64,000 bases of DNA from contig NZ_LT607412.1 of NCBI RefSeq assembly GCF_900091455.1, positions 5,828,001 to 5,892,000 of the forward strand, read 5' to 3'. Under the pieces are notes generated by a model, which had not been told where the DNA came from, did no database searches, and saw nothing but the letters and a program-made list of their open reading frames with translations. Shown here piece by piece: positions 34,233-55,652 of this stretch. The stretch is from Micromonospora coriariae. GTDB lineage: Bacteria > Actinomycetota > Actinomycetes > Mycobacteriales > Micromonosporaceae. Made by a program: the position numbers and the translations under genes. Each line of letters opens with the position of its first letter. The first letter of the stretch is position 1.

Positions 34233-35174
34233 GTGGACTTCGTCGACGGAGTGCTGGTGCGGCTGGCCGATCCGGGCACCCGCGCCGCGGTCTTCGACGA
34301 CGCGTCGCTGGCCCACCTGGTGGAGGCCGCGTACGACACCGAGGCGATGCCGGTCGGGCCCCCGTACGCGGCGGTCTTCGACGAGCTGACCCTCGGCTTC
34401 GCCGCCGCCCCGGTCACCCTGGCCGAGGGGGAGTGGCTGGGCTCCGGCGGCACCACCCGCACCGAGCTGCGGGTACGCCTGCACGGCCTCGGCGGCTCGG
34501 CGCTGCGCATCGACGCGCTCTGGCGGGGCAGCCTGGTGGTGCGTACCAGCGCGGCCCGGGACCGGGTCGAGGACCTCGACGTCGCGGTGCCCGCCTTCGA
34601 CGTCGACCCACAGATCATCGCCGACCTGGGCGCGCTGCCGACCGACCCGGCGCAGTTGGAGACCGAGCGCCGGACCCGGCTGGTGACCCGGCTGCGGGCC
34701 GGGCTGCACCAGCCGGCCGCGTTCACCGACGCGCACCTGGACCGGCTGCTCGCCGGCGTGGGCGCCGCTAACGCCGGCGACCTGGTGGCGCGGATGCGCG
34801 GGCAGGCCGCCGGCGCCACCGTGCAACTGCGCTACGCGGCCCCGCCGGCCGCGCCGCCCACCCCGCGCCCGCTGCCGTTCGCCGCCGCCGTACTGATCCG
34901 CGACCAGGGCTTCTCCCTGGCCGACCTGCTCGTCGAGACCCGCCTGGTCCGGGCCCGGGCCGAGGAGCTGGGGCTGGACGTGCCCGCGCCGGACGACATC
35001 CGGCGCCGGCACCGGATCGTCGCCGTCTGGGTGGTCCCCATCGAGACGTTCGACGACGCGGGCTGGCCCGGTGGCGACAGCGGCAGCGACGCGCAGCGGC
35101 GGGCCGCCCGGTTCGCCCGGGCCGGCCAGTGGCTCGCCCGCAGTGGCATCGGGCTGGCCGCCCTGACGACCTGA
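34233..35174 (+). CDS. Hypothetical protein, first gene of the contractile-tail cluster
   Basis: A 313-aa protein with no recognised domain. A segment WLGSGGTTRTELRVRLHGLGG followed by LRIDALWRGSLVVRTSA looks beta-rich. Other parts are helical (DAHLDRLLAGVGAANAGDLV, and HRIVAVWVVPIETFDD near the end). GTG 34233 is preceded by GGGGAGG at about 8-nt spacing, which I prefer to the upstream GTG at 34182. In other injection systems the gene before the sheath may encode a cap protein, but no such family is visible here. A 13-bp-stem hairpin lies just after its stop. Confidence 0.65.
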   Translation: MDFVDGVLVRLADPGTRAAVFDDASLAHLVEAAYDTEAMPVGPPYAAVFDELTLGFAAAPVTLAEGEWLGSGGTTRTELRVRLHGLGGSALRIDALWRGSLVVRTSAARDRVEDLDVAVPAFDVDPQIIADLGALPTDPAQLETERRTRLVTRLRAGLHQPAAFTDAHLDRLLAGVGAANAGDLVARMRGQAAGATVQLRYAAPPAAPPTPRPLPFAAAVLIRDQGFSLADLLVETRLVRARAEELGLDVPAPDDIRRRHRIVAVWVVPIETFDDAGWPGGDSGSDAQRRAARFARAGQWLARSGIGLAALTT

Positions 35175-35176
35175 GA

Positions 35177-35209
35177 CTCCCGGCCGCTGCCAGCCACAGC
35201 GGCCGGGAG
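35177..35209 (+). terminator. Strong hairpin between the first gene and the sheath gene
   Basis: CTCCCGGCCGCTG (35177-35189) and CAGCGGCCGGGAG (35197-35209) pair perfectly around a 7-nt loop, 2 nt after the stop of the 313-aa gene. There is no U-run. It may be a terminator, partial attenuator or processing site separating the first gene from the sheath and tube transcripts. Confidence 0.65.
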
Positions 35210-35249
35210 CCGCAAACGACCGCAGCAGCAACTCCGTCCGGGAGGACCC

Positions 35250-36419
35250 GTGGCACCGACAGCAGCATTCCCGTTCATCGAGGTCCGGATCGTGCCGCCA
35301 CCGGCGCCACTGGCCCAGCGCTCGCCGGGCGTCATCGCCGTGGTGGGCAAGACCCCGGCCACCGCAGACGGTGGTTCGGCGCCCGCGAACACCCCGGTCC
35401 GGATCGAGACCCTCGACGACGCGGTCACCAACTTCGCCCGTCGGCAGGCCGGCAACGTGGTCCGCAACGCCCTCTACAACTCGCTCGAACTGGCCTTCCT
35501 CCAGGACCCACGCCCGGCCAAGGTGTACGGGGTCAAGGTCTCCGGGGACGACTACGCCGCCGCGCTCAGCGGCCTGGAAGCCGCCGACGACGTGACCATG
35601 GTGTCGCTGGCCAACGAGTCGACCGTCGGCAACCCCGCCGGGGCGGGCGCGCCGACCGGGCTGCACGCGCTCAAGGCGCACGTGGAGACGATGTCCGCGG
35701 CCGGCCAGCGGCGGATCGGCTTCGCCATGGTCAACCCGGCCACCGAGAAGGCCCCCACCTACGTCGCCGACATCACCACCGCGGCGAACCCGCTCAAGAG
35801 CAGCACCAGTCGGATGGTGATGATCGCGGCCCGGGGCGCGGACGGCGACGCCGCCACCGCCGCGATGGCCGCAGTGGCCGGGCTGCCGGTGCACCACAGC
35901 ATCGTGCTGAAGAAGATCCGCGGGGTGGCCGTCCCGGTGGCCAAGCAGTACAGCCCGGCCGAGATCAAGGGCCTCTCCGAGGCCAACCTCACCCCGATCA
36001 TCGATCCGACGCTGATCACCGGGGAGAGCCTGCACTTCGCCGACGGGCGGCTCTTCACCTCCGACGCGAGCCTGCTGCACGTCGACCTGGTGCGCACCCT
36101 CGACCAGATCGAGTTCATGCTCCGCGCCGGCCTGATCGGCCTGGTCGGCGACGCGCGGATCACCAAGCCGGGGATGACCCTGCTGAAGACCCAGGTGGAC
36201 GGCATCCTCGGCCCGCTCAAGCGGCAGGCGGTGATCGACGACTACCGGATCGAGATCCCGGTGCTGGACATCCTCACAATTCCGGAGGTCGCCCGCACCG
36301 CCACCGACACCTCGATCGTCACCGCCGCCCGGGCCGACCGCACCGTCGACCTGGTCGTCACCGTCACGTACGGCCCGGCCGTGAGCCGCCTGCTGGTCAC
36401 GCTCGTGGCCAAGTTCTGA
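35250..36419 (+). CDS. Contractile tail sheath protein
   Basis: A 389-aa protein with the layout of phage and injection-system sheaths. The N-terminal part has RSPGVIAVVGKTP and TLDDAVTNFARRQAGN; the middle has KVYGVKVSGDDY; the C-terminal domain has DQIEFMLRAGLIGLVGDARIT and ends in strands suited to the inter-subunit handshake (AVSRLLVTLVAKF). It is shorter than most eCIS sheaths. GTG 35250 follows GGGAGG at 4-nt spacing. It is followed after 17 nt by the tube gene, as usual. Assembled sheath would surround the inner tube and contract to drive it outward. Confidence 0.88.
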   Translation: MAPTAAFPFIEVRIVPPPAPLAQRSPGVIAVVGKTPATADGGSAPANTPVRIETLDDAVTNFARRQAGNVVRNALYNSLELAFLQDPRPAKVYGVKVSGDDYAAALSGLEAADDVTMVSLANESTVGNPAGAGAPTGLHALKAHVETMSAAGQRRIGFAMVNPATEKAPTYVADITTAANPLKSSTSRMVMIAARGADGDAATAAMAAVAGLPVHHSIVLKKIRGVAVPVAKQYSPAEIKGLSEANLTPIIDPTLITGESLHFADGRLFTSDASLLHVDLVRTLDQIEFMLRAGLIGLVGDARITKPGMTLLKTQVDGILGPLKRQAVIDDYRIEIPVLDILTIPEVARTATDTSIVTAARADRTVDLVVTVTYGPAVSRLLVTLVAKF

Positions 36420-36436
36420 CCCGGAGGAACCAGACC

Positions 36437-36865
36437 ATGGAGTGGAAGACCCGCCTCGCGGTGCAGTACACCAAGGGCACCGAGACGGTGCTGATCAGCC
36501 CGATCGACTCGTTCAGCCCGTCCTTCTCGCTCAACGTCGAGCCGCTGCACTCGTGCGAGGTGACCCACATGGGGGCCATCCACGCGCCGGTGTCGATGAA
36601 CTTCACGATGACCGTCAAGGCCATCGGGGACGTCGCCGGCCGGCTCACCAAACTGGCGCTCGACGGCGAACTCTTCGACATCACCCTGCTCGAGCACACC
36701 GGCGACGACTGGGCGTTCTCCTCCTTCGTGCTCCAGGACTGCCTGATCACCAGCGCGACGCCGACCACCGCCACCATCTCCGGCGCCCCGGCGGCGACCT
36801 TCAGCGGATTCAGCCTGGCGGCCACCGTCGACCCGAAGACCGGCGACCCGTCCGTGCTGCCGTAA
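36437..36865 (+). CDS. Tail tube protein
   Basis: A 142-aa protein of the size and pattern of T4 gp19/Hcp-like tubes: FSPSFSLNVEPLHSCEVTHM, VSMNFTMTVKAIGD, FDITLLEHTGDDWAFSSFVL and a final beta segment. It is placed directly after the sheath. ATG 36437 follows GGAGGA. It should polymerise into the inner tube that is pushed through the target envelope. Confidence 0.85.
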   Translation: MEWKTRLAVQYTKGTETVLISPIDSFSPSFSLNVEPLHSCEVTHMGAIHAPVSMNFTMTVKAIGDVAGRLTKLALDGELFDITLLEHTGDDWAFSSFVLQDCLITSATPTTATISGAPAATFSGFSLAATVDPKTGDPSVLP

Positions 36866-36908
36866 CCCGCCAAAGACAGTCCGCCGACCGACGAACCGGA
36901 GGTAGCAG

Positions 36909-37163
36909 ATGGCGACCGGTGCTGGCCGCGCCGCCCGGGTCACCCGTACCGGGCTGGCCCTGGTGCACGCGGGTGAACTGGTGCTGCCCGCGGCCGGCAG
37001 CGAGGCGCAGGCCGAACAGGTGGCCGAGGACGACCGCGCGGTCATCGCGTACCACTTTCCCGTGGAGATCGAGGTGGTCGACGCCGGCGGCGCGGTCGAC
37101 GCCGACGCGCTCGCCGACCTCGCGCTGACCCGGCTCGCCGAGCACCTGGACGGGCGGTCCTGA
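36909..37163 (+). CDS. Small protein in the contractile-tail cluster
   Basis: An 84-aa protein: VTRTGLALVHAGELVLPAAG, then AEQVAEDDRAVIAYHFPVEIEV and a helical end. No known family. ATG 36909 follows CGGAGG. Its place between tube and the large 1072-aa gene is that of a tail assembly chaperone or a tube-associated initiator, which is position-based inference. It ends 2 nt before the next start. Confidence 0.6.
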   Translation: MATGAGRAARVTRTGLALVHAGELVLPAAGSEAQAEQVAEDDRAVIAYHFPVEIEVVDAGGAVDADALADLALTRLAEHLDGRS

Positions 37164-37165
37164 CG

Positions 37166-40100
37166 GTGGCCATCTCGGTGCATGTGCCGGTGCGGATCCG
37201 GCTGGACGCCCGGTCGGTGACCGAGCGGCCGGAGGCGGTGACCGAGGCGCTCGCCACGGCCCTGGCCCGCGCCCTGGAACGCTCCCGCCGCGAGGTGGTC
37301 GCGCCGCGCGGTGGCTACCTGGAGGTACGCCCCGGGGCTCCGGAGTTCCGCTGGACCGGCCCGGCCGGCGAGCGGGTGTCCCCGGACGACCGGCGGGCCT
37401 TCGAGGCCCGGCTGCGCCGGCGCATCGACGAGGTGGTGACCGCGGCCCGGCTCGACCCGGGTCTGCCTCCCGGCGTTGCCGCGCCGCTGAGCCGGCCGCC
37501 CACCGAGCTGTTCGACCCGCAGCGGATGCGGCACCTGCTGGCCGTCTACCGGGTGCCCTCCTACGACGACGGTGGCGACGCCGCCGAGGTGCCGGTGGAG
37601 GGCGAAGAGTCGGCCCCGGTGACCTACCAGTGGCTGCTACGCCCGGCCGCCGATCTGGTCAACCACCTCGTCGAGCTGGGCCGCGCGGCGGTACGCCAAC
37701 ACGGCGGCCTGCCGACCGGCACGCCGCAGGGGGTCATCGCCCGGGTGCTCGGCTCCGACGGTCGGCCGGTCTGGGGAGTCGTGGTGACCACCACCCCGCT
37801 GTCCCTCTTCACCTTCGACGCCTTCGGTGAGACGGTCCCGGTGCCAGGTCCGGAGCCGCGCTTCGAGGTCCGGCCGGTGCAGCCCGCCCCGCAGCTCGGA
37901 ACGGTGGAACGCCGTCCGGTCGCCGACCGGGCCGCCCTGATCGCCATGGTGGACAGCGAAATGGCCGGCGACGCTCGGCAGCGGTTGCGCATCGCCATGC
38001 CACGTGCCGAGACCACCAGTGCGGAGGAGTACCAGGCGCAGCTCGACCGCGCCGTCGACGCGGAGGTGATCCGACGGGTCAACCAGATCTTCCCGTCCGA
38101 TGGGCCGGCGCCGACCTGCCTGGTGATCGTCCGCATCGGTAGGGCCAGCGTGCTGCTGGTGGGCAACGCGGAGAGCGACGCCATGTTGCACTGGACCGGC
38201 ACGGCCAACCTGCTGCCGATCACCGTCGAGCAGCCCCCGACTGCACCGTCGGACCCGAACGCGCCCTCCGGCGGCGGCGACGGCTCGGGAACAGGTTCAG
38301 GGTCAGGTGGCAGCAGTGGGTCTGGAGCGGGCAGTGGTTCCGGCAGCGGACCGGGCGGCAGTGGACCGGGCGGCGCCGGCACGGGCACCGGGCCAGGGGG
38401 TGGGGCCGGCGGCACCGGCGGGGACGGGACCGGCGGCGCCCGGCGGGGCGGGTTCGTGTTCGACCCGAGCAGCCCCGGCGCGCCAGCCGGCGCCGAGGGC
38501 CGACGGTTCCCCGCCGTCACCGGCGAACACTCCGAGATGCCCGCCTGCGCCCCGTTCAACGGCGAGCCGGAGTTGGCCGCGCTCGGCCCGGACGGCGACG
38601 AACTGCGCCGGCTGATGGACGACATCGCGTTCCGGCTCCAGATGGGCGAGCCGTGCCGCTACCCGGCGAACTTCTGCCTCCAGGCCGCCGCCGTGCTGCG
38701 TGGCCGGGCGGCGGCGATCGGCCTGCTGGTCGGCGCCGCGGAACGCGAGGCGTTCACCCGGCCCGTCCCGGAGGGCACCGGCCGGCTCGGCCCGCTGGAC
38801 TTCCGGCCGGTCGCCTCGCCCGCCGTGCAGTTCCTGCGCCACCTGGCCGGCGTGGTGCCACGCCTCGACCACCTCGCCCAGCTGGTCATGCGCCGCTACA
38901 GCCAACCCCAGCACTTCGCGCGGATCCACGGCGGCTGGATCGACTCGTCCGCCTCCTGGAACCTGCACTTCGTCCAGGCGCTCAGCCCGGCCGTCAAGGC
39001 CGCCGTCGGGCAGCTGTTCATCGTCGGCAGTCAGGCGATGCTGGTGCAGCTGCTGCTCACCTCCCGCAGCGGCATCGAAGCCCGGATCACCAACTTCGAC
39101 CGGTACGCGCCGATCTTCGAGCGGCTGATCGTCTCCCAGCTCACCGACTACGCCGAACTCCAGGGGCTGCGCGAGCGGCTGCGCCGCCACGAGGCCGCCC
39201 GCTGGACGCAGGAGCACACCGCCATCGGCGGCGGCACCCTCGCCACGGTGAGCATGGCCAACCCGGCCACCGCCTGGTACGGGGCCGCCCGCGCCATCTC
39301 CGGCGCGTTCCTCGCCGCCGAGGCCACGATGACCAGCCCCGGCGCGGCCGGCGAGATCATCGAGCGGGACGGCACCACCCGGATCCGCGACTCGCACGCG
39401 GTGCTCTGGACCCTCGCCGAGATCGAACAGGCGCTGGTCGTCCAGCGCGGCGAGGCCGAGGGCATCGACCCGCTGGTCAAGCAGATCACCGACCTGCCCG
39501 ACGTGCTGGCCCGTTTCGCCGGCAACCGGTCGGCGATCCGCGACGAGCTGTGGCGGGTGCTGCAGGACATGCGGCGCAACAACACCGAGATGCTCGGCCG
39601 CGCCCGCACCGACGCCCGGTTCGCGTTCCGGTCCAGCCGGATCAGCGAACACATCCCGTCGGCCACCATCCCCGGTGGCCGCTTCGCCCTGCAGGGCATC
39701 CACCTCGTCACCCACCAGCAGCTCGGCGAGTTCTTCGGCGGCAACCTCTACTACGCCACCGGCGTCGACGAGCTGTTCGGCACCGAGCTGGGCCGCGAGG
39801 CGCTGACCGCGTTCGGCATCACCGTGGGCATCATCGCGCTGTCCATCCTCTGCCCGCCGCTGGGCTTCCTGGTCGGGGTGGCCGTCGCCGTGGGCGACGT
39901 CGTCCACGCCCACCAGCGGGAACGGCTCTACGGGGCGCTGCTCGACCCGGAGCTGGTGCTCACCCGCACCGAGGTGGAGGTCGAGCTGTTCGCCGCGTAC
40001 CTCGGGTTGGCGCTGTCGCTGATCCCGGAGGTCGGCACCATCGGCGGGGTGGTCGTGCGCGGCGGCCGGGTCGCCCTGCGTTTCGGGGTGCGCGCCGGGC

Positions 40101-40384
40101 TGCGCGCCGCCGGGCGGCACGCGTTGCGCCGGCTCACCCGGCAGGTCGTCGAGGCCGCCTCCCGCGACCTGCTCCAGGCGTTCCTCACCGAGATCCTGCT
40201 CAACGAGGTGCTCGAACGCGTCGTGCAGAAGCTGATGGATCCGTTGCTGGCGTACGTGGAACGCGAGGCGATGCTCAGCGGCGCGGTCGGCGGACCGGAG
40301 GGCGCCCGCTTCATCCTCATGGTGCTCGACTCGCAACCCGGTGGCGCCGCCGCCGGGCCGCCCGTCCCGGTGGTACGGCCGTGA
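37166..40384 (+). CDS. Large 1072-aa protein at the tape-measure position
   Basis: The N-terminal 350 residues are mixed and end before a Gly/Ser-rich linker (about residues 367-425). The C-terminal 640 residues are largely helical, with hydrophobic stretches near 875-912 (FGITVGIIALSILCPPLGFL) and 935-960 (LFAAYLGLALSLIPEVG). It sits where contractile-tail operons keep the tape measure, and hydrophobic helices are common in those. The linker-separated layout would also suit a pore-forming or pre-toxin effector. No known domain was recognised. The GTG start lies 2 nt after the preceding stop, and its stop overlaps the next start, so it is tightly coupled. Confidence 0.65.
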   Translation: MAISVHVPVRIRLDARSVTERPEAVTEALATALARALERSRREVVAPRGGYLEVRPGAPEFRWTGPAGERVSPDDRRAFEARLRRRIDEVVTAARLDPGLPPGVAAPLSRPPTELFDPQRMRHLLAVYRVPSYDDGGDAAEVPVEGEESAPVTYQWLLRPAADLVNHLVELGRAAVRQHGGLPTGTPQGVIARVLGSDGRPVWGVVVTTTPLSLFTFDAFGETVPVPGPEPRFEVRPVQPAPQLGTVERRPVADRAALIAMVDSEMAGDARQRLRIAMPRAETTSAEEYQAQLDRAVDAEVIRRVNQIFPSDGPAPTCLVIVRIGRASVLLVGNAESDAMLHWTGTANLLPITVEQPPTAPSDPNAPSGGGDGSGTGSGSGGSSGSGAGSGSGSGPGGSGPGGAGTGTGPGGGAGGTGGDGTGGARRGGFVFDPSSPGAPAGAEGRRFPAVTGEHSEMPACAPFNGEPELAALGPDGDELRRLMDDIAFRLQMGEPCRYPANFCLQAAAVLRGRAAAIGLLVGAAEREAFTRPVPEGTGRLGPLDFRPVASPAVQFLRHLAGVVPRLDHLAQLVMRRYSQPQHFARIHGGWIDSSASWNLHFVQALSPAVKAAVGQLFIVGSQAMLVQLLLTSRSGIEARITNFDRYAPIFERLIVSQLTDYAELQGLRERLRRHEAARWTQEHTAIGGGTLATVSMANPATAWYGAARAISGAFLAAEATMTSPGAAGEIIERDGTTRIRDSHAVLWTLAEIEQALVVQRGEAEGIDPLVKQITDLPDVLARFAGNRSAIRDELWRVLQDMRRNNTEMLGRARTDARFAFRSSRISEHIPSATIPGGRFALQGIHLVTHQQLGEFFGGNLYYATGVDELFGTELGREALTAFGITVGIIALSILCPPLGFLVGVAVAVGDVVHAHQRERLYGALLDPELVLTRTEVEVELFAAYLGLALSLIPEVGTIGGVVVRGGRVALRFGVRAGLRAAGRHALRRLTRQVVEAASRDLLQAFLTEILLNEVLERVVQKLMDPLLAYVEREAMLSGAVGGPEGARFILMVLDSQPGGAAAGPPVPVVRP

Positions 40385-41859
40385 CCCCGCCCCGCCGGTT
40401 CCGTGCCGGCCGCTTCCTCGACGCCGCCGCCGTGCACGCCGCCGCCGACGCCAACCCCCGGCTGCGCCGCTTCATCCGCACCGTCGCCGAGCACAGCGAG
40501 GCCGGCGAGGTGCGCTCCCGGCGGCTGCTGGAACACCTCATCCGCCGTGTCGTCGACGATGTCGGTGACCTGCACCTGGGCAACGCGATCAACCGGCTGG
40601 AACGCATCGCCGTGCTGCGGGACAACATCGCCGCCATCCTCGACCACGTGCTCGAGGGCGGCACCCTGCCCGAGGGGGTGCGGGTGGCGACCCTCGGCGA
40701 GTACTTCGACCAGCTCAGCACGGAGATGCGCGAGCTCAGCCGACCCCGCGAGGGCATCGTCGGGGACGCGCCGCTGCGGCTGGCCGACGACGCCAGCGTG
40801 TACGCCGAGTCGTTGCTGCGCGAGTTCGACGCGGGCGGCGGGACGGCCGGCCGGCACACCGAGCCGGCCGCCGTGGTCACCGACGCGTTCCGGGCCATGC
40901 CGGCGGACCGGCAGGCCGCCCTGCGTCGGGCCGCCGACCTGGAACCGGCCGCGCTGTGGCACGCGGTGGCCGCCGAGTCCGAGGCCGGCAAGCGGGCCGC
41001 CGTCGCGGACCTGGAGACCCGGCTCGCTGGCCGGCTCACCCCCGACGAACTGGGTCGGCTACGCACCGCCGTCGACGACCTCGGTCGGGCCCGCTCGCGC
41101 GGCCTGCAGATGAGCGAGGCCCGGCTGACCGAGGCCCTCGCAAGGATCAGCGACCCGGATCTGCGCGCCGTGGTGGCCGGCGGCGACGTCTGGCTCACCC
41201 AACAGCTCGCCGTGCACAACCCGGAGGCGCTCGCCACCCTCTGGCGGCGCTTCCGCGACCGGGGCGGCCGGGCCGACGACGGCCCCGGCTTCCGCGCCTA
41301 CCTGAGACACGACATGGTCACCTACGGCCGGGGCGTGCTCGGCGAGTACACCGCCGCGTTCTCGCTGAGCAGCATCGAGCTGTTCCTCAAGGGCCCCGAC
41401 GCCAACGTCAAGGTCGCCGGCACCGACCTGGTGGGCATCGGCCACGACGGCTGGGTGTGGCTGGTCGACGACAAGTCGCACCGGGCCACGAGCGTCAGCG
41501 GAGTCGGCGCGCTCACCGACAACCTGGTCACCAACCTGCGCCGCGACGCCGCGGACTTCCGTGACGGCATCGCCCGGCTGCAACGCGACGACCCGGGTTT
41601 CACCCCCGACCCGCGGATCCTCGACGCGATCTCCCGGATGGAGGACGCCGCCGCCGAGATCGACCGGATCAACCGGCGCGGTTCGGCGTCCACCCGGCCG
41701 GCGCGGATCAGCCGGGCACTGGAGGAACGCCGGCTGCGGCTGCGGGTGACCAGCGCCGCCGGCGAGGTCCGCGAGATCACCCAGGCGCTGCGCGACCTGG
41801 GACTGGCCGTCGAACCCACCGGCGCGCCGGTGGCGCTGCCACCCACCGGAGGGCGCTGA
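40381..41859 (+). CDS. Nuclease-like protein, candidate payload of the contractile system
   Basis: A 492-aa soluble, mainly helical protein. Around residue 320 begins a segment GVLGEYTAAFSLS, then AGTDLVGIGHDGWVWLVDDK near residues 347-365, whose Glu...Asp...(D)xK spacing resembles restriction-endonuclease-fold toxins. The upstream 300 residues are helices with no match (LLEHLIRRVVDDVGDLHLG). It starts with a GTG that overlaps the stop of the 1072-aa gene. No counterpart is expected in a minimal tail operon, so a cargo or effector role is plausible. No immunity protein is evident beside it. Confidence 0.6.
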   Translation: MTPPRRFRAGRFLDAAAVHAAADANPRLRRFIRTVAEHSEAGEVRSRRLLEHLIRRVVDDVGDLHLGNAINRLERIAVLRDNIAAILDHVLEGGTLPEGVRVATLGEYFDQLSTEMRELSRPREGIVGDAPLRLADDASVYAESLLREFDAGGGTAGRHTEPAAVVTDAFRAMPADRQAALRRAADLEPAALWHAVAAESEAGKRAAVADLETRLAGRLTPDELGRLRTAVDDLGRARSRGLQMSEARLTEALARISDPDLRAVVAGGDVWLTQQLAVHNPEALATLWRRFRDRGGRADDGPGFRAYLRHDMVTYGRGVLGEYTAAFSLSSIELFLKGPDANVKVAGTDLVGIGHDGWVWLVDDKSHRATSVSGVGALTDNLVTNLRRDAADFRDGIARLQRDDPGFTPDPRILDAISRMEDAAAEIDRINRRGSASTRPARISRALEERRLRLRVTSAAGEVREITQALRDLGLAVEPTGAPVALPPTGGR

Positions 41860-41861
41860 GC

Positions 41862-42362
41862 ATGGCATTCACCAGCAGCTTCATGCGGTACGACACGGTG
41901 CCGTCGGCGATCATCAGTGACGGGGTGCTGCCGATCCCACTCTGGGCGGTGACCGCCATCTCCCTCGCCCAGACCTACCACCTGCCACCGATCGGCTCCA
42001 CCGCGCACAAGGCCATCGTGGCCACCCACGACGACACCATCACGCTGACCGGGGTGCTGGTCGGCGCGGAGCGCTACGCCTGGAAGTTCGCCCTGGAGAC
42101 GATGGCCGAGGCGAGCAAACGCGGCACCGCGCTGGCCGCGTACTCCGGCGGGAGGTTCGGTGGGCTGATCCTGGTCACCTCGATGACCATCCGCACCGAC
42201 ATGCAGGTGCAGTCGCTGACCTTCAACGCGTCGGCCGCCCGCCGGGACGTCCTGGACACCACCATCACCCTCGTCCACGTGCCCCGTCCCAGCCTGCTCG
42301 GCAAGCTGCTCGACGTGGCCAGCATCGGAGTCGGCGCGCTCGCCGACGGGTTGGGCAACTGA
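41862..42362 (+). CDS. Tail/baseplate-associated protein, gpU-like by pattern
   Basis: A 166-aa protein: DDTITLTGVLVGAERYAWKF, ALETMAEASKRGTALAAYSG, GGLILVTSMTIRTDMQVQ, then FNASAARRDVLDTTITLV. The sequence pattern and its position before the hub-spike resemble phage P2 gpU-like or LysM-linked baseplate proteins. Certainty is low. The ATG lies 2 nt after the previous stop, and its TGA overlaps the next ATG. Confidence 0.55.
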   Translation: MAFTSSFMRYDTVPSAIISDGVLPIPLWAVTAISLAQTYHLPPIGSTAHKAIVATHDDTITLTGVLVGAERYAWKFALETMAEASKRGTALAAYSGGRFGGLILVTSMTIRTDMQVQSLTFNASAARRDVLDTTITLVHVPRPSLLGKLLDVASIGVGALADGLGN

Positions 42363-43015: not shown

Positions 43016-45039
43016 CACTCACGCCGTTCCAGACCGGCCAGGTGCGCCAGGGCGCGGTCGGCAACGACGCCGGCTGGACCCTGACCTTCCACCGGGAGAC
43101 ACCGACCGGGATCAGCCAGGACGCGGCGCTCACCCTGTCCAGCGCCGACTACTACGCGGCCATCGACGCCGCGCTGCCCGACGGGCTGGGCCCCGGCGCC
43201 TACACGATCACCGTGCAGGGGCTGATCGACGAGCACTTCGCCGCGCTGCGCACCGCCGAGGGGCAACCGCCGCTGGTGGCGAAGCTGCACCTGTACTGGC
43301 GGGACGCCAACACCTCGGTCGGCGCGTTCTTCACCAACCTGGTCGGGGTCAACGCCGGCCCGTCACCGGCCGAGCTGACCCAGGCGCTGGTGGCCGTGCT
43401 GCGGGTGACCAAGGTGCGCCGGCTCACCGGCGAGCGGACGTACGACACCGAACTGACCCTCGTCGAGCAGGCGTACGCCCGCCTGGGCCAGCGGGTCGCC
43501 GAGCGGTTCGAGGCGGCCACCTTCACCGCCGCGATCCGGGCCGTCTCCGAGCGGACCAGGGTGGACATCGCCAGCTGGGGCGCCAACGCGGACGGCACGA
43601 TGACCCGGGGCGCCACCGAGGCGGCCGGTGACGAGCGGGTGGCCTTCGGCGCCGGGCTGCTGTACCGCGCCGCGCTGGACCGGATCGGTGGCGCGTTGCA
43701 GCAGTCGCTGAACGCGTACGGGCGGGGGATGCTGCTGATCCGCGACGGCACCGTGCACGTCGGCAAGCGGCCGGTCCCGTACCCGGAGGGGGAGCCGAAG
43801 CCACTCACCCTCGCCACCGGCCTGCTGGAGTGCACCGAGAACGGCAGCCAGGACACCGACCCGTACGCGGCCACCGAGGCCGGCGGCACGGCGCCGCCGC
43901 GCCGGCGGGCGTGGACGCTCACCCTCAAGGGCCGCCCCGACCTGAAGCCCGGTGACCTGGTCCGCTTCGACCCGCCAGCGGTGGACGAGGCGACCACGCT
44001 GGGCAGCGTCGGCGCGGCGCTGCTCGGCTCGTTCGCCGCCCCGTTCGCCCCGTCCACCGGGGAGTTGGGTCCCGGGGCGAAGCTGCTCTACCTCAGCGCC
44101 GCCCGGCACACCCTGTCGCGGACGGCCAGCTTCGTGACGGTGGTGCAGGGGGTGGAGGTGGCATCCGCCACCCAGGCCTGGGACAGCTGGAGCGACGCCT
44201 CCGGCGTGGGCACCGCCGAGCCGGCCGGTCCGGCCTCCTCGCCCGGGGTGGCCGCCGCCGAGGCGGTGCGGCGGGCGGCCCGCGCGGCCCGGGGCGAGAC
44301 GCGCGGGCTGGAGATCGGCGAGGTGCGGGCGGCGGCCACCAACGCCAGCGGCGCGGTCGAGCCACCGGCCCAGACCGAGACGGTCTGGGAGGGGCTGGCC
44401 CGCCCGGACGGCCGGCCGAACGGGGCCCGCCGGCTTCCGGTACGCCGGGAACAGCCGGCGCCACTGCCCGGCGTGACCTACCTGACCCCGTTCGCCTGGG
44501 GTGGCTGCGGGCTCATCCTGCCCCGCTACCCGGGCACCCGGGTGGCCCTGGCCTACCGCAACGGCGCACCCGACGACCCGGTCGAGGTTGGTGCGCTGTG
44601 GCCCACCGGGCACGCCCCGGTCTCCCAGCCGGGGGACTGGTGGCTGTCGCTGCCGGTCGGGGTCGCCAGCGACCGCCGCTCCTCGATCGGTGACACCGTG
44701 GTGCCCGCCGACCACGACGGCAAGGTGGCGCACGACCTCACCGACGGCGACGGCAACCGGGTCATCGAGCTGGGGGAGCTGACCGTGCGGGTGGGCCGCG
44801 CCCAGCTGCGCGGCCGGGGCCAGCGCCCGGAACGCGCCGACGAGGCCGACAGCATCACCATCGAGCACGCCGCCGGCGGCTCCTCGATCGTGATGAAGCA
44901 GGACGGCTCGATCACCATCACCGCCACCCGGATCGACCTGGACGCCGGCGACGGCGCGGTGAACATCAGCGGCGGCTCGGTCAGCATCGCCGCCGACGAC
45001 GTCGACGTCCAGGTCAGCAACGCGATGAACGTCCACTGA
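43012..45039 (+). CDS. Hub-spike baseplate protein (gp27/gp5, VgrG-like)
   Basis: A 675-aa protein. The N-terminal 350 residues resemble a gp27-type hub. From about residue 480 an OB-fold/gp5-like region is seen (YLTPFAWGGCGLILPRYPGTRVALAYRNG). The C-terminus is a repetitive beta-helix needle (SSIVMKQDGSITITATRIDL, then VNISGGSVSIAADDVDVQVS) typical of spikes. It is followed by a PAAR-like gene that would cap the needle. The ATG overlaps the previous stop. This is the piercing complex at the centre of the baseplate. Confidence 0.8.
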   Translation: MTLTPFQTGQVRQGAVGNDAGWTLTFHRETPTGISQDAALTLSSADYYAAIDAALPDGLGPGAYTITVQGLIDEHFAALRTAEGQPPLVAKLHLYWRDANTSVGAFFTNLVGVNAGPSPAELTQALVAVLRVTKVRRLTGERTYDTELTLVEQAYARLGQRVAERFEAATFTAAIRAVSERTRVDIASWGANADGTMTRGATEAAGDERVAFGAGLLYRAALDRIGGALQQSLNAYGRGMLLIRDGTVHVGKRPVPYPEGEPKPLTLATGLLECTENGSQDTDPYAATEAGGTAPPRRRAWTLTLKGRPDLKPGDLVRFDPPAVDEATTLGSVGAALLGSFAAPFAPSTGELGPGAKLLYLSAARHTLSRTASFVTVVQGVEVASATQAWDSWSDASGVGTAEPAGPASSPGVAAAEAVRRAARAARGETRGLEIGEVRAAATNASGAVEPPAQTETVWEGLARPDGRPNGARRLPVRREQPAPLPGVTYLTPFAWGGCGLILPRYPGTRVALAYRNGAPDDPVEVGALWPTGHAPVSQPGDWWLSLPVGVASDRRSSIGDTVVPADHDGKVAHDLTDGDGNRVIELGELTVRVGRAQLRGRGQRPERADEADSITIEHAAGGSSIVMKQDGSITITATRIDLDAGDGAVNISGGSVSIAADDVDVQVSNAMNVH

Positions 45040-45049
45040 GGAGAGCGAC

Positions 45050-45373
45050 ATGGCATTCGTGCTCACCACGTCGAGTGACGTGCACTGTCCCAGCCAGGGC
45101 TCGGTCACCCCGGCCGGGCAGGCGAAGCTGACGGTGGCCGGCACCCCGGTGGTCCGCCCCGACGGCATCACCGGCAAGTCGGTGACCGGCTGCCTGATCA
45201 CCGACAGCAGCTCCACGGTGCAGTGCAAGAACGTCGTGTCGGCGTCCGGCGCCGCCCAGAAGCTGCACGTCGGCGGCGCCGGGGTCGCCCTGGACACGCT
45301 CAGCGGCGCCACCAACGGCTCGACCCCGGGCCTGTCCGCCAGCGCCGGGCAGAGCAAGCTGCGGGCGGTCTGA
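45050..45373 (+). CDS. PAAR-like spike tip protein
   Basis: A 107-aa protein: VLTTSSDVHCPSQGSV, KLTVAGTPVVRPDGITGKSV, then GCLITDSSSTVQCKNVV. Several short beta repeats with Cys/His fit the PAAR-like tip proteins found in injection systems, where they sharpen the spike. ATG 45050 follows GAGGAG. Position between spike and gp25 is as expected. Confidence 0.7.
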   Translation: MAFVLTTSSDVHCPSQGSVTPAGQAKLTVAGTPVVRPDGITGKSVTGCLITDSSSTVQCKNVVSASGAAQKLHVGGAGVALDTLSGATNGSTPGLSASAGQSKLRAV

Positions 45374-45374
45374 G

Positions 45375-45878
45375 ATGGACCGGACCGAGCGGGAACGGCA
45401 GGCCGCCCAACGCCGGTACCTCGGCTGGGGCCTGGCCTTCGAACCCACCATGCCCGGGCTGGACCTGGCCCGGGACGTCGTCTTCGACGACGGCCCGAAC
45501 GGTCGGGTGCTGGCCCTGGTCGCCGGCACCGACAACGTGGCGCAGAGCCTCGCGGTGGCGCTGACCACGCTGCGCGGCTCGAACGTCTTCGACGCCACCT
45601 TCGGCTTCGACGGGCTCAACGCCCTGGCCGAACCGGTCGAACCGACCCTGATCCGCGAGCAGGTGCGGATCGGCATCATCACGCTGCTCGACCGGGACCC
45701 CCGGGTCCGCCGGATCGTCGACGTCAACCTCGACGACGGCCGGCTCGGCGCCGGCGGCACCGATGACGCCACCCGGGCGGCGCTGCGCGCCTCGCGCACC
45801 CTGCAGGTGCAGGTCCAGTTCGAAACCATCACCGACGACCGGCTCTCGGTGCACCTCGGGGAGCTGCCCAATGTCTGA
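45375..45878 (+). CDS. gp25/gpW-like baseplate wedge protein
   Basis: A 167-aa protein with the gp25 signature: NVAQSLAVALTTLRGSNVFD, EPTLIREQVRIGIITLLDRD, then RVRRIVDVNL. gp25 proteins link the baseplate wedge to the sheath and start sheath polymerisation. ATG 45375 is separated by 1 nt from the preceding stop; its 3' end overlaps the next gene by 8 nt. Confidence 0.8.
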   Translation: MDRTERERQAAQRRYLGWGLAFEPTMPGLDLARDVVFDDGPNGRVLALVAGTDNVAQSLAVALTTLRGSNVFDATFGFDGLNALAEPVEPTLIREQVRIGIITLLDRDPRVRRIVDVNLDDGRLGAGGTDDATRAALRASRTLQVQVQFETITDDRLSVHLGELPNV

Positions 45879-47307
45879 TCCCACACTGCCCGCCGAGCTG
45901 GCCGACGTCCTCGCGGTCGACGCCGCCGCGTTGCGGGCCACCGGCTCGACCGGGTTCGGCATCGTCGAGACCGGCTTCGTGCCGAAGTCCTTCGCCCGGC
46001 TGCTCGCCGAGAAGCTGGCCACCGCCCGGCTGCTCTTCGGCGAGGACGTCGACCTGACCAGCGGTGCGGTGCTGCGCAAGGTCCTCGAGCTGGCCGCGCT
46101 GGAGGACGCCCGGCTGTGGGCGGCCCTCGGCTCGGTCTACGACAACTCGTACGTGGTGTCGGCGACCGCCGACGCGCTGACCCGCCTCGGCGAGGAACTC
46201 GGCATCGGACGGCCGTACCTGCCGGCCCGCGGCACGGTGAAACTGAAGCTGAAGGCCGCCCTCCCGACCGGTCGCACCCAGCTCACGCTGCCCCGGGGCG
46301 CGCGGCTGTCCACCCCCGGCGGGCACCACGTCGCGCTGGACGAGACGGTGGTGCTCTCCGCCGCCGTCGGCGAGCGGACACCGGCCGTCGCCGCGTTCTA
46401 CCCCGGCCCGTCGCACAACCTCGACCCCACCCAGCCCAGCCAGAAGATCGACAGGTGGAACCGGGCCGACACCCTGCTGGCCGATCTGGACGACGCCGAG
46501 CAGGCCGCCGGGAACGAGCTGGTGGAGATCACCCACACCGTCGCGCTGACCGGCGGCGAACAGCAGGTCCCCGACGCCCGTTACCGGCAGCTCCTGCTGG
46601 CCGCGCCCCGGTCCATCTGGACGGCCGAGGCGATCGGGCTGGCCGTGGCCACCGTGCCGGGCGTACGCCAGGTGCAGGTCTTCGACGGTCGGGGCGGGCT
46701 GGACCTCAACCAGTCCATCTTCGGCAACTTCAACTTCATCGAGCGGGTCTTCAGCACCGAACGGGACCTCGGCAACCCGTACTACGTGACGGTGCTGGTC
46801 GCGCCGACCGCGGCGGCCATCTGGGACGGCCCCGACGGGCTGCACGCCGCCGTCGAGTCGGTGATCGAGGACCTGCGCCCGGTGGGCATCTTCGCCTCGG
46901 TGGACCGGGCCGACGAGGTGGGCATCGGGGTGGAGGCCGACCTGGTGATCCGTGGGCTGCCACTGCCCACCGGCTCCCGGGAGACGGTGAACGCGTCCAC
47001 CGCCGCCACCGAGCTGCGTGCCCGGCTGCACGCCCGGCTGCGCCGCTACGTCGACGAGCTGCCGTTCGGTGAGCCGGTCCGCGCGGCCGAGGTGATCTGG
47101 ACGCTGATGAACGAGCCGGGCGTCGCGGACGTGCGTGAGCTGCGGCTGGTCCGCTTCCCGGCCGACTCGGCGGTGGTGGTGACCGGCAGCGCGCCCACCG
47201 GCGACGGGGTGCAGCGTCTGCCGGTGGGCGACAACGCGGTGCTCGCCGCCAACCAGGTGCCCGTCTACGTCGACCGGGACGACCCCCGGCCGTTCCGGAT
47301 CGTCTGA
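45871..47307 (+). CDS. Baseplate J-like wedge protein
   Basis: A 478-aa protein of the baseplate J/gp6 type: FARLLAEKLATARLLFG, VLRKVLELAALEDARLWAAL, GRPYLPARGTVKLKLKAALP, PRGARLSTPGG, then AIGLAVATVPGVRQVQVFDG and a C-terminal LRRYVDELPFGEPVRAAEV. It should form the ring of wedges round the hub. ATG 45871 overlaps the gp25 gene, indicating coupling. Its position after gp25 matches phage P2, Mu and eCIS order. Confidence 0.82.
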   Translation: MSDPTLPAELADVLAVDAAALRATGSTGFGIVETGFVPKSFARLLAEKLATARLLFGEDVDLTSGAVLRKVLELAALEDARLWAALGSVYDNSYVVSATADALTRLGEELGIGRPYLPARGTVKLKLKAALPTGRTQLTLPRGARLSTPGGHHVALDETVVLSAAVGERTPAVAAFYPGPSHNLDPTQPSQKIDRWNRADTLLADLDDAEQAAGNELVEITHTVALTGGEQQVPDARYRQLLLAAPRSIWTAEAIGLAVATVPGVRQVQVFDGRGGLDLNQSIFGNFNFIERVFSTERDLGNPYYVTVLVAPTAAAIWDGPDGLHAAVESVIEDLRPVGIFASVDRADEVGIGVEADLVIRGLPLPTGSRETVNASTAATELRARLHARLRRYVDELPFGEPVRAAEVIWTLMNEPGVADVRELRLVRFPADSAVVVTGSAPTGDGVQRLPVGDNAVLAANQVPVYVDRDDPRPFRIV

Positions 47308-47318
47308 GCGGGGGCGCG

Positions 47319-49664
47319 ATGACCGACATCCGGGTGCCGGTGGACGGGGCCGACCCGTCCGTCGAACGTAACCTCGTCGACCAGTTGGAGGGCCCGTACC
47401 CGGGGAGCGTGCGGCGGGTGGTGGTGCCGATCGGCGCTACCGGCACCGCCGCGGTGGACTGGACCAGCCGCCATCCGCTGCTCACCGTGGTGCTGCGCCG
47501 GGACCTGGTCGAGGAGACCGTCCGGGTGACGGTCACCGTGGGTCCGGGCGGCGCCGGCGAGCGGGTGCTGCCGCCGGTGGTCTTCGCGCAGTGGTCGGCG
47601 GCCGGCGCGTCGGTGCCGGGGTACGTGCCGGACACGGCCGACGAGCCGCTGGTCGCGCCGTTCACCGTCGCCGTGGCGGTCGAGCGGGCCGTCGGCGGCG
47701 GCGCGTACACGGCGGTCACCGGGGCGGCGCTCACCGCCCTGGTCGAGCTTGCCGTGCTGGAGGGCAACCTGGGCCGGCTGCTCTACCTGGTGTCGCACGA
47801 GAAGCACCGGCTGCGCCGCGCCGCCCGGGAGGTGCACGCGTACCGCACCCTCGCGCACGCGCGGCGGGACGCGCTGGACCGGATCGGCGCGGACGTCGGG
47901 GTGGCCCGTTTCGTCGACGAGCTGGTGCACGAGCCGGCCAGCGGCGAGGTGTACGCCCGTCGGCTGGCACCGCCGGCTCGGGAGCCGGACTCCGCGTACG
48001 CCCACCGGCTCGGGCTCTACCGGCGGTTCCTGCTGCCCACCCCGGGCGCGGTGCGCCGGCTGCTCAACGGGCCGGGGGCGGACACCGACCCGAACACCGG
48101 ACTCTTCGCCGACCTGCCCGGTGGCGCCCGGTTCACCGTGCGGGAGGACGACGACCGGTTCGCGGTGGCGATCCGGCTGGTCGCCGCCGGGGACCCGCAG
48201 CACCGCACCAACTTCCTCGCCCAGCTGCGCCGGGACCGGCTGGTGCTGCCCGCGAACACCCCGCCGAACAACACAGTGCACGCCGGCCGGGCGCTGCCCG
48301 CGAGCCGGCTGGCCGAGGTCACCGCGCTGCGGGCCAGCCTGCGCCAGTCGTACGCTTTCGGCAGCGGGCACGGTGTCGCGCCGCCGCTCGCCGTCGCGCT
48401 GGACCGGGCCGGGCGGGTCTGCCGGGCGCTCGGCTCGACGGCGGTGTGGCAGGTGACCCGGGCCCAGGACGACGCCGGTGGCAGCCGCTACGAGCTGGGC
48501 CTCGGCGTGGACCTCACCCCGCCGACCGCGGCGCAGGCCACCGACCTGCGCAACCGGGTGCTGGACACCGGCCGCGCCGCCACCGCCGACCGGACCGCCG
48601 AGGCGCTGATCGCCGCGGCCCGCGCGGCCGGCGTGCCCACCGTGGCGGCCGACGGCGAGCTGGCCTGGCTGTGGCGGGTGTGCGGGGTGCAGACCGCACA
48701 CCGGGTCAGCACCGCCGGCCTCTACCTGTCGCACCTGCCCACCCGAGGGCTGGCGGTGACGGCGCCGGTGACCGCCGCGGTCGGCGCCGACACGGCCGTC
48801 GAGGCGCAGTTCCACGCGCCGGGCGACCCGGGCGGCAACGCGCTGCTGCTGGCCGGACTGACCGCCGCCCGGGCGGCCTGGACCGGCGCCGGGGAGCCGG
48901 CGTGGACGTCGCTGACCGACGCGGCGGCCCGAACGCGCTGGGCCGCTGTGCCGACCCGGTCGGCCGGGCAGCCGGTGGACCAGGTGCTGGCCGCCGCCGG
49001 CCTGCCCGCGGTACGGGAACCGGCGCCGGTGGTGGCCGCGCTGAACCGGCTCCCCGACGAACTGGTGGAGACCATCGAGCTGCCGGCGGCACTCGCCGCG
49101 GCGCTGGTGGCCGGGCAACCCGCTGCCGCCGACCGGCTGGCCCGACTGGTCGGCCTGCTGCGTGACCAGCACCTCGCCGCCGCGCTGCCGCTGGTCGAGA
49201 CCGGCAACCGGGTGCTGCTGGTGTGCAGTGTCATCGGTCTGCCGCAGGCCGGGCTGAACCTGGCCGAGCGGCGGGCCACCGGGTTCCGTTGGTACACCGT
49301 GGGGATCGGCGGCGGCACGGCGGAGATCAAGGCGGTCGGCGCGCGGACCACGCTGCGCCCCACCCACGCCGGACTGGTCGCCGTGGTGGCGCTCTCGTAC
49401 GTGCGCACCGGGCTGACCGACCCGTACGAGTTCCGGGTGGAGCTGCCCGACGGGGTGCCGCTGACCCTGGCGCAGTACGAGCGGCTGATGAACGCCCTGA
49501 CCCGGGTCTGTCCGCTCGGCGTGGAGATCAACACCTTCGGTATCCGGCGCGATCACGTCGACCTCGACGCCGATGGCGACGCCGAGCCGCTGCGCCCTGC
49601 GGTGGCCCGGACCTTCCGCACCTTCCAGCAGCGCCGGCACCGCGGCGTGTACGACCAGCTCTGA
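47319..49664 (+). CDS. Large baseplate-associated protein
   Basis: A 781-aa protein placed where gpI/gp7-like wedge proteins usually lie. It starts TDIRVPVDGADPSVERNLVD, has a helical middle (SHEKHRLRRAAREVHAYRTL) and ends with YEFRVELPDGVPLTLAQYER and GVEINTFGIRRDHVDLD, which suggests a beta-rich C-terminal domain. No database family was recognised. ATG 47319 lies 12 nt after the previous stop. Baseplate role is inferred from place. Confidence 0.65.
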   Translation: MTDIRVPVDGADPSVERNLVDQLEGPYPGSVRRVVVPIGATGTAAVDWTSRHPLLTVVLRRDLVEETVRVTVTVGPGGAGERVLPPVVFAQWSAAGASVPGYVPDTADEPLVAPFTVAVAVERAVGGGAYTAVTGAALTALVELAVLEGNLGRLLYLVSHEKHRLRRAAREVHAYRTLAHARRDALDRIGADVGVARFVDELVHEPASGEVYARRLAPPAREPDSAYAHRLGLYRRFLLPTPGAVRRLLNGPGADTDPNTGLFADLPGGARFTVREDDDRFAVAIRLVAAGDPQHRTNFLAQLRRDRLVLPANTPPNNTVHAGRALPASRLAEVTALRASLRQSYAFGSGHGVAPPLAVALDRAGRVCRALGSTAVWQVTRAQDDAGGSRYELGLGVDLTPPTAAQATDLRNRVLDTGRAATADRTAEALIAAARAAGVPTVAADGELAWLWRVCGVQTAHRVSTAGLYLSHLPTRGLAVTAPVTAAVGADTAVEAQFHAPGDPGGNALLLAGLTAARAAWTGAGEPAWTSLTDAAARTRWAAVPTRSAGQPVDQVLAAAGLPAVREPAPVVAALNRLPDELVETIELPAALAAALVAGQPAAADRLARLVGLLRDQHLAAALPLVETGNRVLLVCSVIGLPQAGLNLAERRATGFRWYTVGIGGGTAEIKAVGARTTLRPTHAGLVAVVALSYVRTGLTDPYEFRVELPDGVPLTLAQYERLMNALTRVCPLGVEINTFGIRRDHVDLDADGDAEPLRPAVARTFRTFQQRRHRGVYDQL

Positions 49665-49677
49665 GAGGGACACCACA

Positions 49678-50805
49678 ATGGCGAGCGAGATCAACTACGA
49701 CGGGGTGACCGTCACCGAGCTGTACGAGGCGTTCACCAAGCACGGCATCCCGGCCTCGGACGCCAGCGTGCTGGTCTCCTCCTGGATCTACGAGAACGTG
49801 GGCACGGCGAAGCGGGTGTTCAGCTACGCCGAGCCGTTTCCGGCGGTGGAGCCGGGCTGCGCGCCGCCGCCGTTCGCCCGTACCTTCGCGCACAGCGACT
49901 GGGTCGACGGCGAGGATGTCGTGCAGGCCGGGCAGACGCCCGGCGAGCAGGGCTTCAACGAGCGCTTCCACCGCATCGAGCACGACCTGGACCACCTCGG
50001 GACCGACCTCGCCAAGGCGTTCTCCTGCATGGCGGCGATGCGGGTGAGCCTGCGGCGGCTGCTCGACGAGATCCGCGCGGAGATCAACCGGCTGCACTCG
50101 ACGGTGCACGAGACCAAGGTCAGCCCCGGTCCGTACACGATCGAGCAGATCCCGAACTACATCGGCGCGCTGGACTTCGGCAAGTACATGGGCACCACGA
50201 TGTTCCTGGACAAGAAGGTCAGCATCTGGCAGACCAAGGCCGGCACCATCGTGCTGCCCGCAGTGGAGACCCTCGGCGTGGACGTGGTCGCCGGGCCGAA
50301 GGTCCGTGGTGCCGCCCAGCTCGCCCGCTACACCGCCGAGCACGGAGACGTCCGGCAGCGCTTCCCGCGCGAGGTGAAGCTGGAGGAGTTCATCCGCGTC
50401 TTCGGCGAGGACGAGGTGGCCGACGGCCGGCTGGTCCGTGACGTGCTCAAGGTGCTGCCCGCGGAGACCGCCTACCCGAGCGTCGACGCGATGCTCGCCG
50501 AGGTGAGCGAGCGGGAGGCGGTGATCGTACGGACCACCGTCGGCGCCCAGGCGGCGGTCGCCGCGGCGCTGGGCATCGAGACCGAGCTGGAGAACGTCGG
50601 GGACGCCGACATCGCGATGCTCGCCGGAGTGCCGACCAAGGCCCGGGCGGCGCTGGCCCGCAGCGGCATCAGCACCCTCGGCAAACTGGCCGAGGCGCCG
50701 GCCGAGCAGGTGCTCGCCATCATGAAGGAGGCCCAGATACGCGCCGACGTCGGCGACGCCGCCGAGTGGACCGGATACGCCCGGACGCTGAGCAAGCTGC
50801 GCTGA
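49678..50805 (+). CDS. Protein with C-terminal helix-hairpin-helix domain, last gene of the tail cluster
   Basis: A 375-aa protein. Residues 1-60 are helical (VTVTELYEAFTKHGIPASDA). A long helix lies near 100-150 (HRIEHDLDHLGTDLAKAF, RRLLDEIRAEINRLHST). The C-terminus, ADIAMLAGVPTKARAALARS and then TLGKLAEAPAEQVLAIM, is a helix-hairpin-helix like DUF4332. Function in the particle is unknown; DNA binding or structural packing are both possible. ATG 49678 is 14 nt after the preceding gene, with GAGAGGG upstream. Confidence 0.6.
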   Translation: MASEINYDGVTVTELYEAFTKHGIPASDASVLVSSWIYENVGTAKRVFSYAEPFPAVEPGCAPPPFARTFAHSDWVDGEDVVQAGQTPGEQGFNERFHRIEHDLDHLGTDLAKAFSCMAAMRVSLRRLLDEIRAEINRLHSTVHETKVSPGPYTIEQIPNYIGALDFGKYMGTTMFLDKKVSIWQTKAGTIVLPAVETLGVDVVAGPKVRGAAQLARYTAEHGDVRQRFPREVKLEEFIRVFGEDEVADGRLVRDVLKVLPAETAYPSVDAMLAEVSEREAVIVRTTVGAQAAVAAALGIETELENVGDADIAMLAGVPTKARAALARSGISTLGKLAEAPAEQVLAIMKEAQIRADVGDAAEWTGYARTLSKLR

Positions 50806-54150: not shown

Positions 54151-54208
54151 GGGGTCTCCTCGGGGGTGGGGTGCCGGGCGTCCGTGGGCGGTCGGAGTGG
54201 GGCCCGAC

Positions 54209-54231
54209 GGGCGCCGGTCGGTCCGGCGCCC
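54209..54231 (-). terminator. Terminator-like hairpin between the two pectate lyase genes
   Basis: GGGCGCCGG (54209-54217) and CCGGCGCCC (54223-54231) pair perfectly with a 5-nt loop, 20 nt beyond the stop of the upstream lyase gene at 54251. Confidence 0.6.
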
Positions 54232-54250
54232 GCGATGGTGGGCCGGTCGG

Positions 54251-55609: not shown

Positions 55610-55652
55610 CGATTCTTCCCGTTCGCTGGTGGTGGTTCGGCAGTCACCAGAA

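Follow-up and report, generated by a model that had tools for sequence, protein, structure and literature searches.

An operon of Micromonospora coriariae predicted to encode a contractile injection machine of separate lineage with modular toxins

What kind of contractile machine is encoded by an operon that has the parts of a phage tail and no recognised head genes? The question is raised by 14 genes at 34233-50805 of the window, a 64,000-nucleotide stretch of Micromonospora coriariae DNA (contig NZ_LT607412.1, positions 5,828,001 to 5,892,000) taken from a one-contig genome of 6.93 Mb whose closest named relatives are Micromonospora. The original prediction, made from the sequence of this stretch, had seen a tight rightward operon of tail families and proposed a dedicated particle of a divergent lineage. 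Our analysis found a tail-like gene content, a conserved gene order, a common N-terminal module (N-module) with dissimilar C-termini, linkage of that module to the cluster and nuclease-type residues in a partner protein. We read the operon, with a probability of roughly 70%, as encoding an injection machine of the contractile kind, from a lineage of its own, onto which modular toxins would be loaded by way of the common N-module.

Structural genes and a colinear plasmid cluster

All 14 predicted open reading frames (ORFs) exist on the forward strand, with high third-position GC in their coding frames, and neighbours overlap or are separated by no more than 75 bp (spacing about -8 to +75 bp). 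Three are assigned by direct match: the tail sheath (389 amino acids [aa], 35250-36419) to PHROG 23, tail sheath, at E 1.6e-7; the gp25-like sheath initiator or wedge (167 aa, 45375-45878) to PHROG 975 at 1.4e-5; and the baseplate J-like wedge (45871-47307, about 478 aa from the start judged most likely from the translations, 45871) to PHROG 6 at 6.4e-31 and to Pfam Baseplate_J at 2.1e-7. Sheath, baseplate J and gp25 wedge, the parts that mark contractile injection machines in the broad sense, thus occur together in the operon. The Pfam scan took in the operon genes except the sheath ORF, which was judged by six-frame searches with PF04984 and PF17482, by its profile against PDB and by the Pfam annotation of its relatives. 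Among the genes scanned, only Baseplate_J passed the cut-off, gp25 lying below it (0.0014). The seven genes that had been said to match no known family (313, 84, 1072, 492, 217, 781 and 375 aa) indeed have no Pfam family above cut-off, and nothing convincing was found in Pfam, PHROGs or NCBIfam for any operon gene other than sheath, gp25 and J.

Since the J profile matches wedge 2 of 9cuy best among PDB sequences (2.6e-5) and the gp25 profile matches 9euf (2e-4) and Anabaena All3318 (7b5h, 3e-4), while the sheath profile found no solved sheath among 177,635 PDB sequences, the baseplate is, by sequence, recognisably of the contractile-tail family and the sheath and tube have diverged. For the remaining tail roles that had been predicted, direct matches are weak or lacking: the hub-spike (VgrG-like, 676 aa, 43009-45039) has a weak VgrG/gp5 likeness in its C-terminal part (E 0.0062 and 0.026), the tube (142 aa, 36437-36865, with 36437 the most likely start) a weak Hcp similarity (E 0.32) and the PAAR-like spike tip (107 aa, 45050-45373) no direct PAAR match.

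These three roles are backed by relatives in Streptomyces canus NBC_01585, whose plasmid NZ_CP109336 carries the sole plasmid match of the sheath (30% identity) within a cluster annotated mostly as 'hypothetical protein'. Profiles of the window-gene families, J and gp25 left out, were compared with its proteins, and nine families proved colinear at 1e-5 or better: in window order the 313-aa protein (1e-5), sheath (2.4e-37), tube (8e-33, to the gene that follows the sheath), 84-aa protein (6e-10, to a 62-aa protein), 166-aa protein (4e-18), hub (5e-32), PAAR-like tip (1e-19, to the gene after the hub), 781-aa protein (1.5e-16, to a LamG protein) and 375-aa protein (5e-12, to a 161-aa protein). 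The 217-aa counterpart is recognised by position only (E 0.018), and proteins of P2, Mu and T4 in the same comparison gave nothing below 0.003. The S. canus J protein itself matches PHROG 6 at 1.1e-48, and its hub PHROG 196, baseplate hub, at 1.2e-7.

The other structural assignments are more tentative. The first gene (313 aa, 34233-35174) is proposed from its position to encode an end-cap or terminator-like protein; its AlphaFold2 model (predicted local distance difference test, pLDDT, 82.7) gave no Foldseek match at 0.001. The 166-aa protein (41862-42362) may be a tube initiator or distal-tail-like protein, a Dit-like Pfam family lying below cut-off at E 0.065, and the 781-aa protein (47319-49664), one region of which weakly matches phage baseplate proteins (E about 0.1), may be a second wedge or outer baseplate protein. 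The 217-aa protein (42362-43015) is simply a conserved protein, and the 375-aa product of the last gene (49678-50805) is best conserved in a block at residues ~65-120.

A predicted cargo protein with a common module

The largest ORF (37166-40384) encodes a 1072-aa predicted cargo protein with a module at residues ~1-130, a Gly/Ser-rich linker and hydrophobic segments in its C-terminal half. The N-module has no Pfam match. A single copy was found in each of 16 genomes, 14 of which supplied the profile, with 150 candidates scored in most. Within Micromonospora it was found in 19 of 160 genomes, the same 19 that hold full-length J (at least 85% identity); seven more genomes, with only partial J matches at 31-39%, are without it. 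In one of the 19 (G587) the module is split over two frames (C1:3915695-3916125), beside an intact J.

Comparison of 37 carriers, 13 picked by locus and 24 by the module itself, separates the two ends of the protein. In BLAST the first 130 residues gather in a single cluster (557/666 pairs linked), the last 250 in 11 unlinked groups (169 pairs linked; the Nodosilinea row stops short at the edge of its contig). The largest C-terminal group, of 18 rows, is the window type, and in the loci of this group that hold the nuclease-like protein it is a separate gene. Elsewhere the matches are varied: Tox-REase-9 in a piece on another Nodosilinea contig (7.7e-4) and GmrSD_C in the carrier P0160 (0.0012), both below cut-off, an HExxH string in one Amycolatopsis cargo protein and, from a Pfam scan of 24 carrier rows, three further families in one row each, with no clear toxin. 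The Myxococcus cargo protein (L030:4335-8867, minus strand) has a P-loop string, GNTAAGKTT, near its end and is possibly a kinase-type toxin. In Paraburkholderia sacchari a 244-aa protein stands between the cargo gene and the next structural gene, a place that holds no immunity-like gene in the window.

In the S. canus cluster a protein of 1313 aa begins with the N-module and has an AHH nuclease domain at its C-terminus (PF14412, 4.4e-7, above cut-off). The profile that detected the module there contains no S. canus sequence; its E-value was 1.4e-9 in a set of 4 proteins and 1e-7 over the ORFs of the locus. Ahead of that cluster (NZ_CP109336 179755-212702) lie genes for patatin-like and DNA/RNA non-specific endonuclease proteins, and the module was not found in them.

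The gene that follows in the window (40381-41859) encodes a 492-aa protein whose family carries an E...GTD...D[D/N]K signature. Its residues E322, D349, D363 and K365 are invariant in 11/11 aligned members, all of which conform to the PD-(D/E)XK active-site pattern E...D...(D/E)-X-K, and a low-confidence model (pLDDT 67) places a helix, three strands and a helix around the signature in the matching order. We therefore describe this protein as a predicted nuclease; in some other genomes the nuclease is apparently part of the large protein.

We read the C-termini of the module carriers as predicted toxins that can replace one another, some of nuclease-like character, and the N-module is probably the docking tag of the cargo, a loading role that we infer because the module is linked to the cluster and modular. 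Sheath and tube would polymerise on a baseplate of gp25, J and the 781-aa protein around the hub-spike with its PAAR-like tip. The cargo module would attach to the tube or to the spike, the 84-aa protein (36909-37163) being a possible adaptor or chaperone; this small protein shows a G[IL]ALVHEGELVLPAAGSEA-type motif in alignment, and its C-terminus bears a weak resemblance to the N-module of the cargo (P 0.0024, probability 12). Contraction would then push spike and cargo through a membrane, and the half of the 1072-aa protein that holds the hydrophobic segments might assist the passage of the nuclease, here the 492-aa protein. Because the window operon contains no recognised gene for a fibre, for lysis or for a separate immunity-like protein (and no immunity-like gene between the cargo gene and the following structural gene), we favour, by a small margin, firing inside the producing cell, in the manner of Streptomyces contractile injection systems (CIS), over the release of a particle aimed at a receptor.

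The position of the cargo gene invites another explanation, that the 1072-aa protein is first of all a tape measure, its C-terminus varying as in phages, with toxin activity secondary, or else a mixed, tape-measure-derived effector. After sheath, tube and a small protein it stands where the tape measure stands in P2 (FI-FII-E-T) and Mu (L-M-41-42), it occurs once per genome in 16/16, it contains hydrophobic stretches, and tape-measure-related CIS effectors are reported in Streptomyces (PMC13277306). Set against this, the slot is empty in S. canus, whose counterparts of the 84- and 166-aa genes are direct neighbours and whose module-bearing protein has a nuclease domain at its end; the Myxococcus gene is inverted and upstream; and the proteins range from 863 to 1587 aa (the Amycolatopsis start being uncertain) with dissimilar C-termini. 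We regard a tape measure in the first place as unlikely, though of the alternatives it is the one to be taken most seriously; the cargo protein may nevertheless descend from a tape measure or have a double role.

Several points weigh against an injection machine with modular toxins. The assembled particle is a presumption made from genes. The cargo gene does occupy the tape-measure slot, and the hub, tube and PAAR roles lean on S. canus relatives where direct matches are weak or absent. Fold searches with the low-confidence 492-aa model gave no solved-nuclease match. As many as 24 of the 37 carriers were picked by the module itself, and the Micromonospora search scored 24 candidates out of some 250 in each genome, so that further copies of the module could be missed. 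Finally, two results on selection, taken up below, blur the division between structural and cargo genes: the 217-aa gene has a median dN/dS (ratio of nonsynonymous to synonymous substitution rates) of 0.29, near the 0.30 of the 492-aa gene, and in the most distant strain pair the hub, 313-aa, 375-aa and gp25 genes reach 0.46-0.59.

Distribution and selection

Relatives of the sheath number 626 among 7994 candidates scored from a set of 5.8 billion proteins; the 120 listed are at least 61% identical to it, and among them are proteins of Actinomycetota, Gammaproteobacteria, Cyanobacteria and Fimbriimonas. A scan of genome contigs yielded 26 loci. Profiles built from the window genes were then applied to 15 mapped genomes, all outside Micromonospora and from five phyla: Actinomycetota (Cellulomonas, two Amycolatopsis, Kutzneria, Modestobacter and one metagenome-assembled genome, MAG), Pseudomonadota (Microvirga, two Paraburkholderia, a Roseomonas MAG and an Ectothiorhodospiraceae MAG), Cyanobacteriota (Nodosilinea and Leptolyngbya), Planctomycetota (Aquisphaera) and Myxococcota (Myxococcus). 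Each of twelve genes, namely those for the 313-aa protein, sheath, tube, 84-, 1072-, 166- and 217-aa proteins, hub, PAAR-like tip, gp25, J and 781-aa protein, was present in 15/15 (for the 1072-aa gene this may mean the N-module alone), and because twelve of the 14 recur in this way the match of the operon is not due to chance. The 375-aa gene is present in 14/15, the one exception coming from a locus in which the 781-aa gene is last, and the 492-aa family in 8/15. The window order is kept wherever one stretch holds the genes, with the Myxococcus cargo gene as the clear exception; the Nodosilinea cluster is split across two contigs.

The cassette seems complete as listed, since none of 211 flanking ORFs was linked to it over more than two genera, homologs of a BTAD-domain regulator having been set aside beforehand. 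In the window this regulator (50942-51778, plus strand; PF03704, 5.7e-14) adjoins the operon and is a possible activator; homologs adjoin the loci of M. lupini, PLK6-60, Cellulomonas and Modestobacter, and were found in 2/15 of the genomes outside the genus.

The cluster is rare even among close relatives. The sheath was found in 7/101 near relatives, the window genome counted in, and in 1/396 genomes drawn over the phylum, this one being the window genome itself (scoring was confined to a few top candidates in each genome). The J profile found 23 of 300 genomes of the family, in 4/44 genera.

Where the operon does occur in Micromonospora it is under purifying selection, as measured by the Nei-Gojobori method, which ignores base-composition bias, in ten loci and 45 strain pairs (36 for PAAR and gp25). 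Median dN/dS is 0.10-0.29 in eight structural segments; in the 1072-aa gene it is 0.50 for the N part and 0.34 for the C part. For the PAAR-like tip it is 0.74. Cargo and tip have the highest median dN, that of the tip being the highest of 12 segments. In the pair window/U21, cargo and tip also have a dS of 0.26-0.34, where the median of the structural genes is 0.12, a possible sign that alleles were exchanged; other pairs show the effect weakly or not at all.

Further genes flank the operon in the window. Upstream, at 31728-32660, is an HNH_2 endonuclease-domain protein (6.7e-11), within a stretch of lower GC (63-68%) at 26-34 kb. Directly downstream, on the minus strand, lies a small HD hydrolase related to RelA/SpoT (51686-52408, 4.5e-12), followed at 52525-58833, also on the minus strand, by two adjacent pectate lyases and then oxidoreductase and mannitol dehydrogenase genes, perhaps a plant-sugar locus.

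Relation to phage tails and known injection systems

Could the operon be a tailocin or the prophage remnant of a P2-like phage? Its sheath is of P2 size (389 aa, against 396 aa in P2 FI), PHROGs 23 and 6 hold P2 proteins too, and it shares with P2 and Mu tails and R-type tailocins the sheath-tube-small-large order, with hub, gp25 and J later as in Mu. In a sheath tree of 35 rows, 15 clade rows are united (92/66) and joined to S. canus (98/99), on the opposite side of a 98/97 branch from P2, T4, the canonical sheaths and the genome's own PF04984 sheath. Mu and two Mu-like sheaths fall on the clade side, a deeper placement that appears unsafe owing to long branches.

No nesting of the sheath within a prophage clade, which would have spoken for a phage origin, was found: the sheath, searched against 50,697 phage records in translation, gave no match at E 0.01, and none of 41 pattern matches in viral contigs was confirmed. 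J reaches 21 phage records; the 20 listed align with 20-50% of its length and are 21-31% identical. As predicted, the window operon has no recognised capsid, terminase or lysis gene. No fibre gene was recognised either, and, in difference to phage tails and tailocins, the C-termini of its large protein are dissimilar between loci. The parallel expectation for related loci could be followed in part: 124 flanking ORFs matched 64 PHROG families, and the 25 families shown name no capsid, portal or terminase and include one endolysin-family and one tail-lysozyme-family member. With purifying selection in Micromonospora and a spread over five phyla, a tailocin or remnant is very improbable.

The sheath also stands apart within its own genome. 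Six-frame searches with PF04984 and PF17482 found only the other sheath there, a canonical PF04984 protein on the minus strand (C1:5907692-5908279, in a 567-aa frame) about 16 kb after the window, and neither family appears in the precomputed Pfam annotation of the 120 best relatives. PF04984 sheaths, of CIS or prophages, occur also in 9 of the 15 other genomes. A division of labour between two distant contractile systems in one genome is accordingly testable.

More is shared with the extracellular contractile injection systems (eCIS) or phage-like protein translocation structures (PLTS), such as Afp, PVC, MAC and AlgoCIS: sheath, tube, VgrG-like hub, PAAR, gp25 and J in one operon without capsid. 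The cluster might then be a divergent subtype of these, overlooked as its proteins escape Pfam; the reach of the gp25 profile to an Anabaena CIS protein fits such a view. In the PLTS paper 12 clusters are assigned to Micromonosporaceae (PMC4122934), and any of them might be of the window lineage. The paper also states that PLTS clusters always hold an AAA+ ATPase (PMC4122934). In the window, as had been predicted, no such protein was found: the Walker A pattern (G-x4-GK[ST]) occurs in 0 of 15 proteins checked, and no conserved neighbour supplies one. The HExxH cargo marker is likewise found in 0 of the 15. One tube gene is recognised, and the sheath is apart from PF04984 CIS sheaths. A divergent subtype of the described eCIS is therefore rather improbable, and the original placement in a divergent lineage stands, its particle being still a matter of presumption. 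The cargo module, too, is another one, and no LysM protein, DUF4255 cap or Afp13-like fibre was recognised (a genome search for the DUF4255/Pvc16 cap gave 0 matches, as did its controls).

Judged by its sequences, the operon is of the contractile-injection kind and is filed neither as eCIS, T6SS (type VI secretion system) nor tailocin, because no AAA+ ATPase accompanies it, the T6SS sheath is absent (no VipB/TssC, PF05943, in the genome, an E. coli control giving a match) and it does not place with tailocins. The bolder proposal is tentative, with the odds falling slightly short of even: a further major CIS branch, independent of eCIS and T6SS, whose roughly 13 genes form a cassette complete in itself, without an ATPase, present in five phyla or more and equipped with an effector-recruiting module that belongs to it. 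An eCIS survey describes selection of loci by Pfam families and at least 10 Afp-like core genes (PMC8213781). Since only J of the scanned genes passed the Pfam cut-off, Pfam-based surveys of this sort would probably miss the window cluster, and contractile machines may be undercounted. The N-module offers a handle for new toxins and raises the question of how cargo is loaded without an ATPase; were the separate branch true, it would be a functional counterpart of DUF4157 or MIX/RIX, marking a polymorphic toxin family that can be found by sequence.

Among known clusters the S. canus plasmid cluster is closest, with nine families in order, equivalents of J and gp25 and the cargo N-module; it differs in a downstream cargo gene with an AHH nuclease end, in the LamG domain on its 781-aa counterpart and in a sheath about 30% identical. 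The class IId CIS of Streptomyces (CISSc / SLP) differ in their DUF4157 partner proteins and in a sheath that we take to be of canonical type. They are likewise actinobacterial and are described as cytoplasmic, firing intracellularly, without fibre and without a tape-measure gene (PMC12237407), and their reported tape-measure-like effectors (PMC13277306) recall the cargo protein. Set beside the T6SS polymorphic effectors of MIX/RIX type, the window module differs in having no Pfam match and in a genome without VipB, and shares with them the plan of one N-terminal module joined to many C-terminal toxins.

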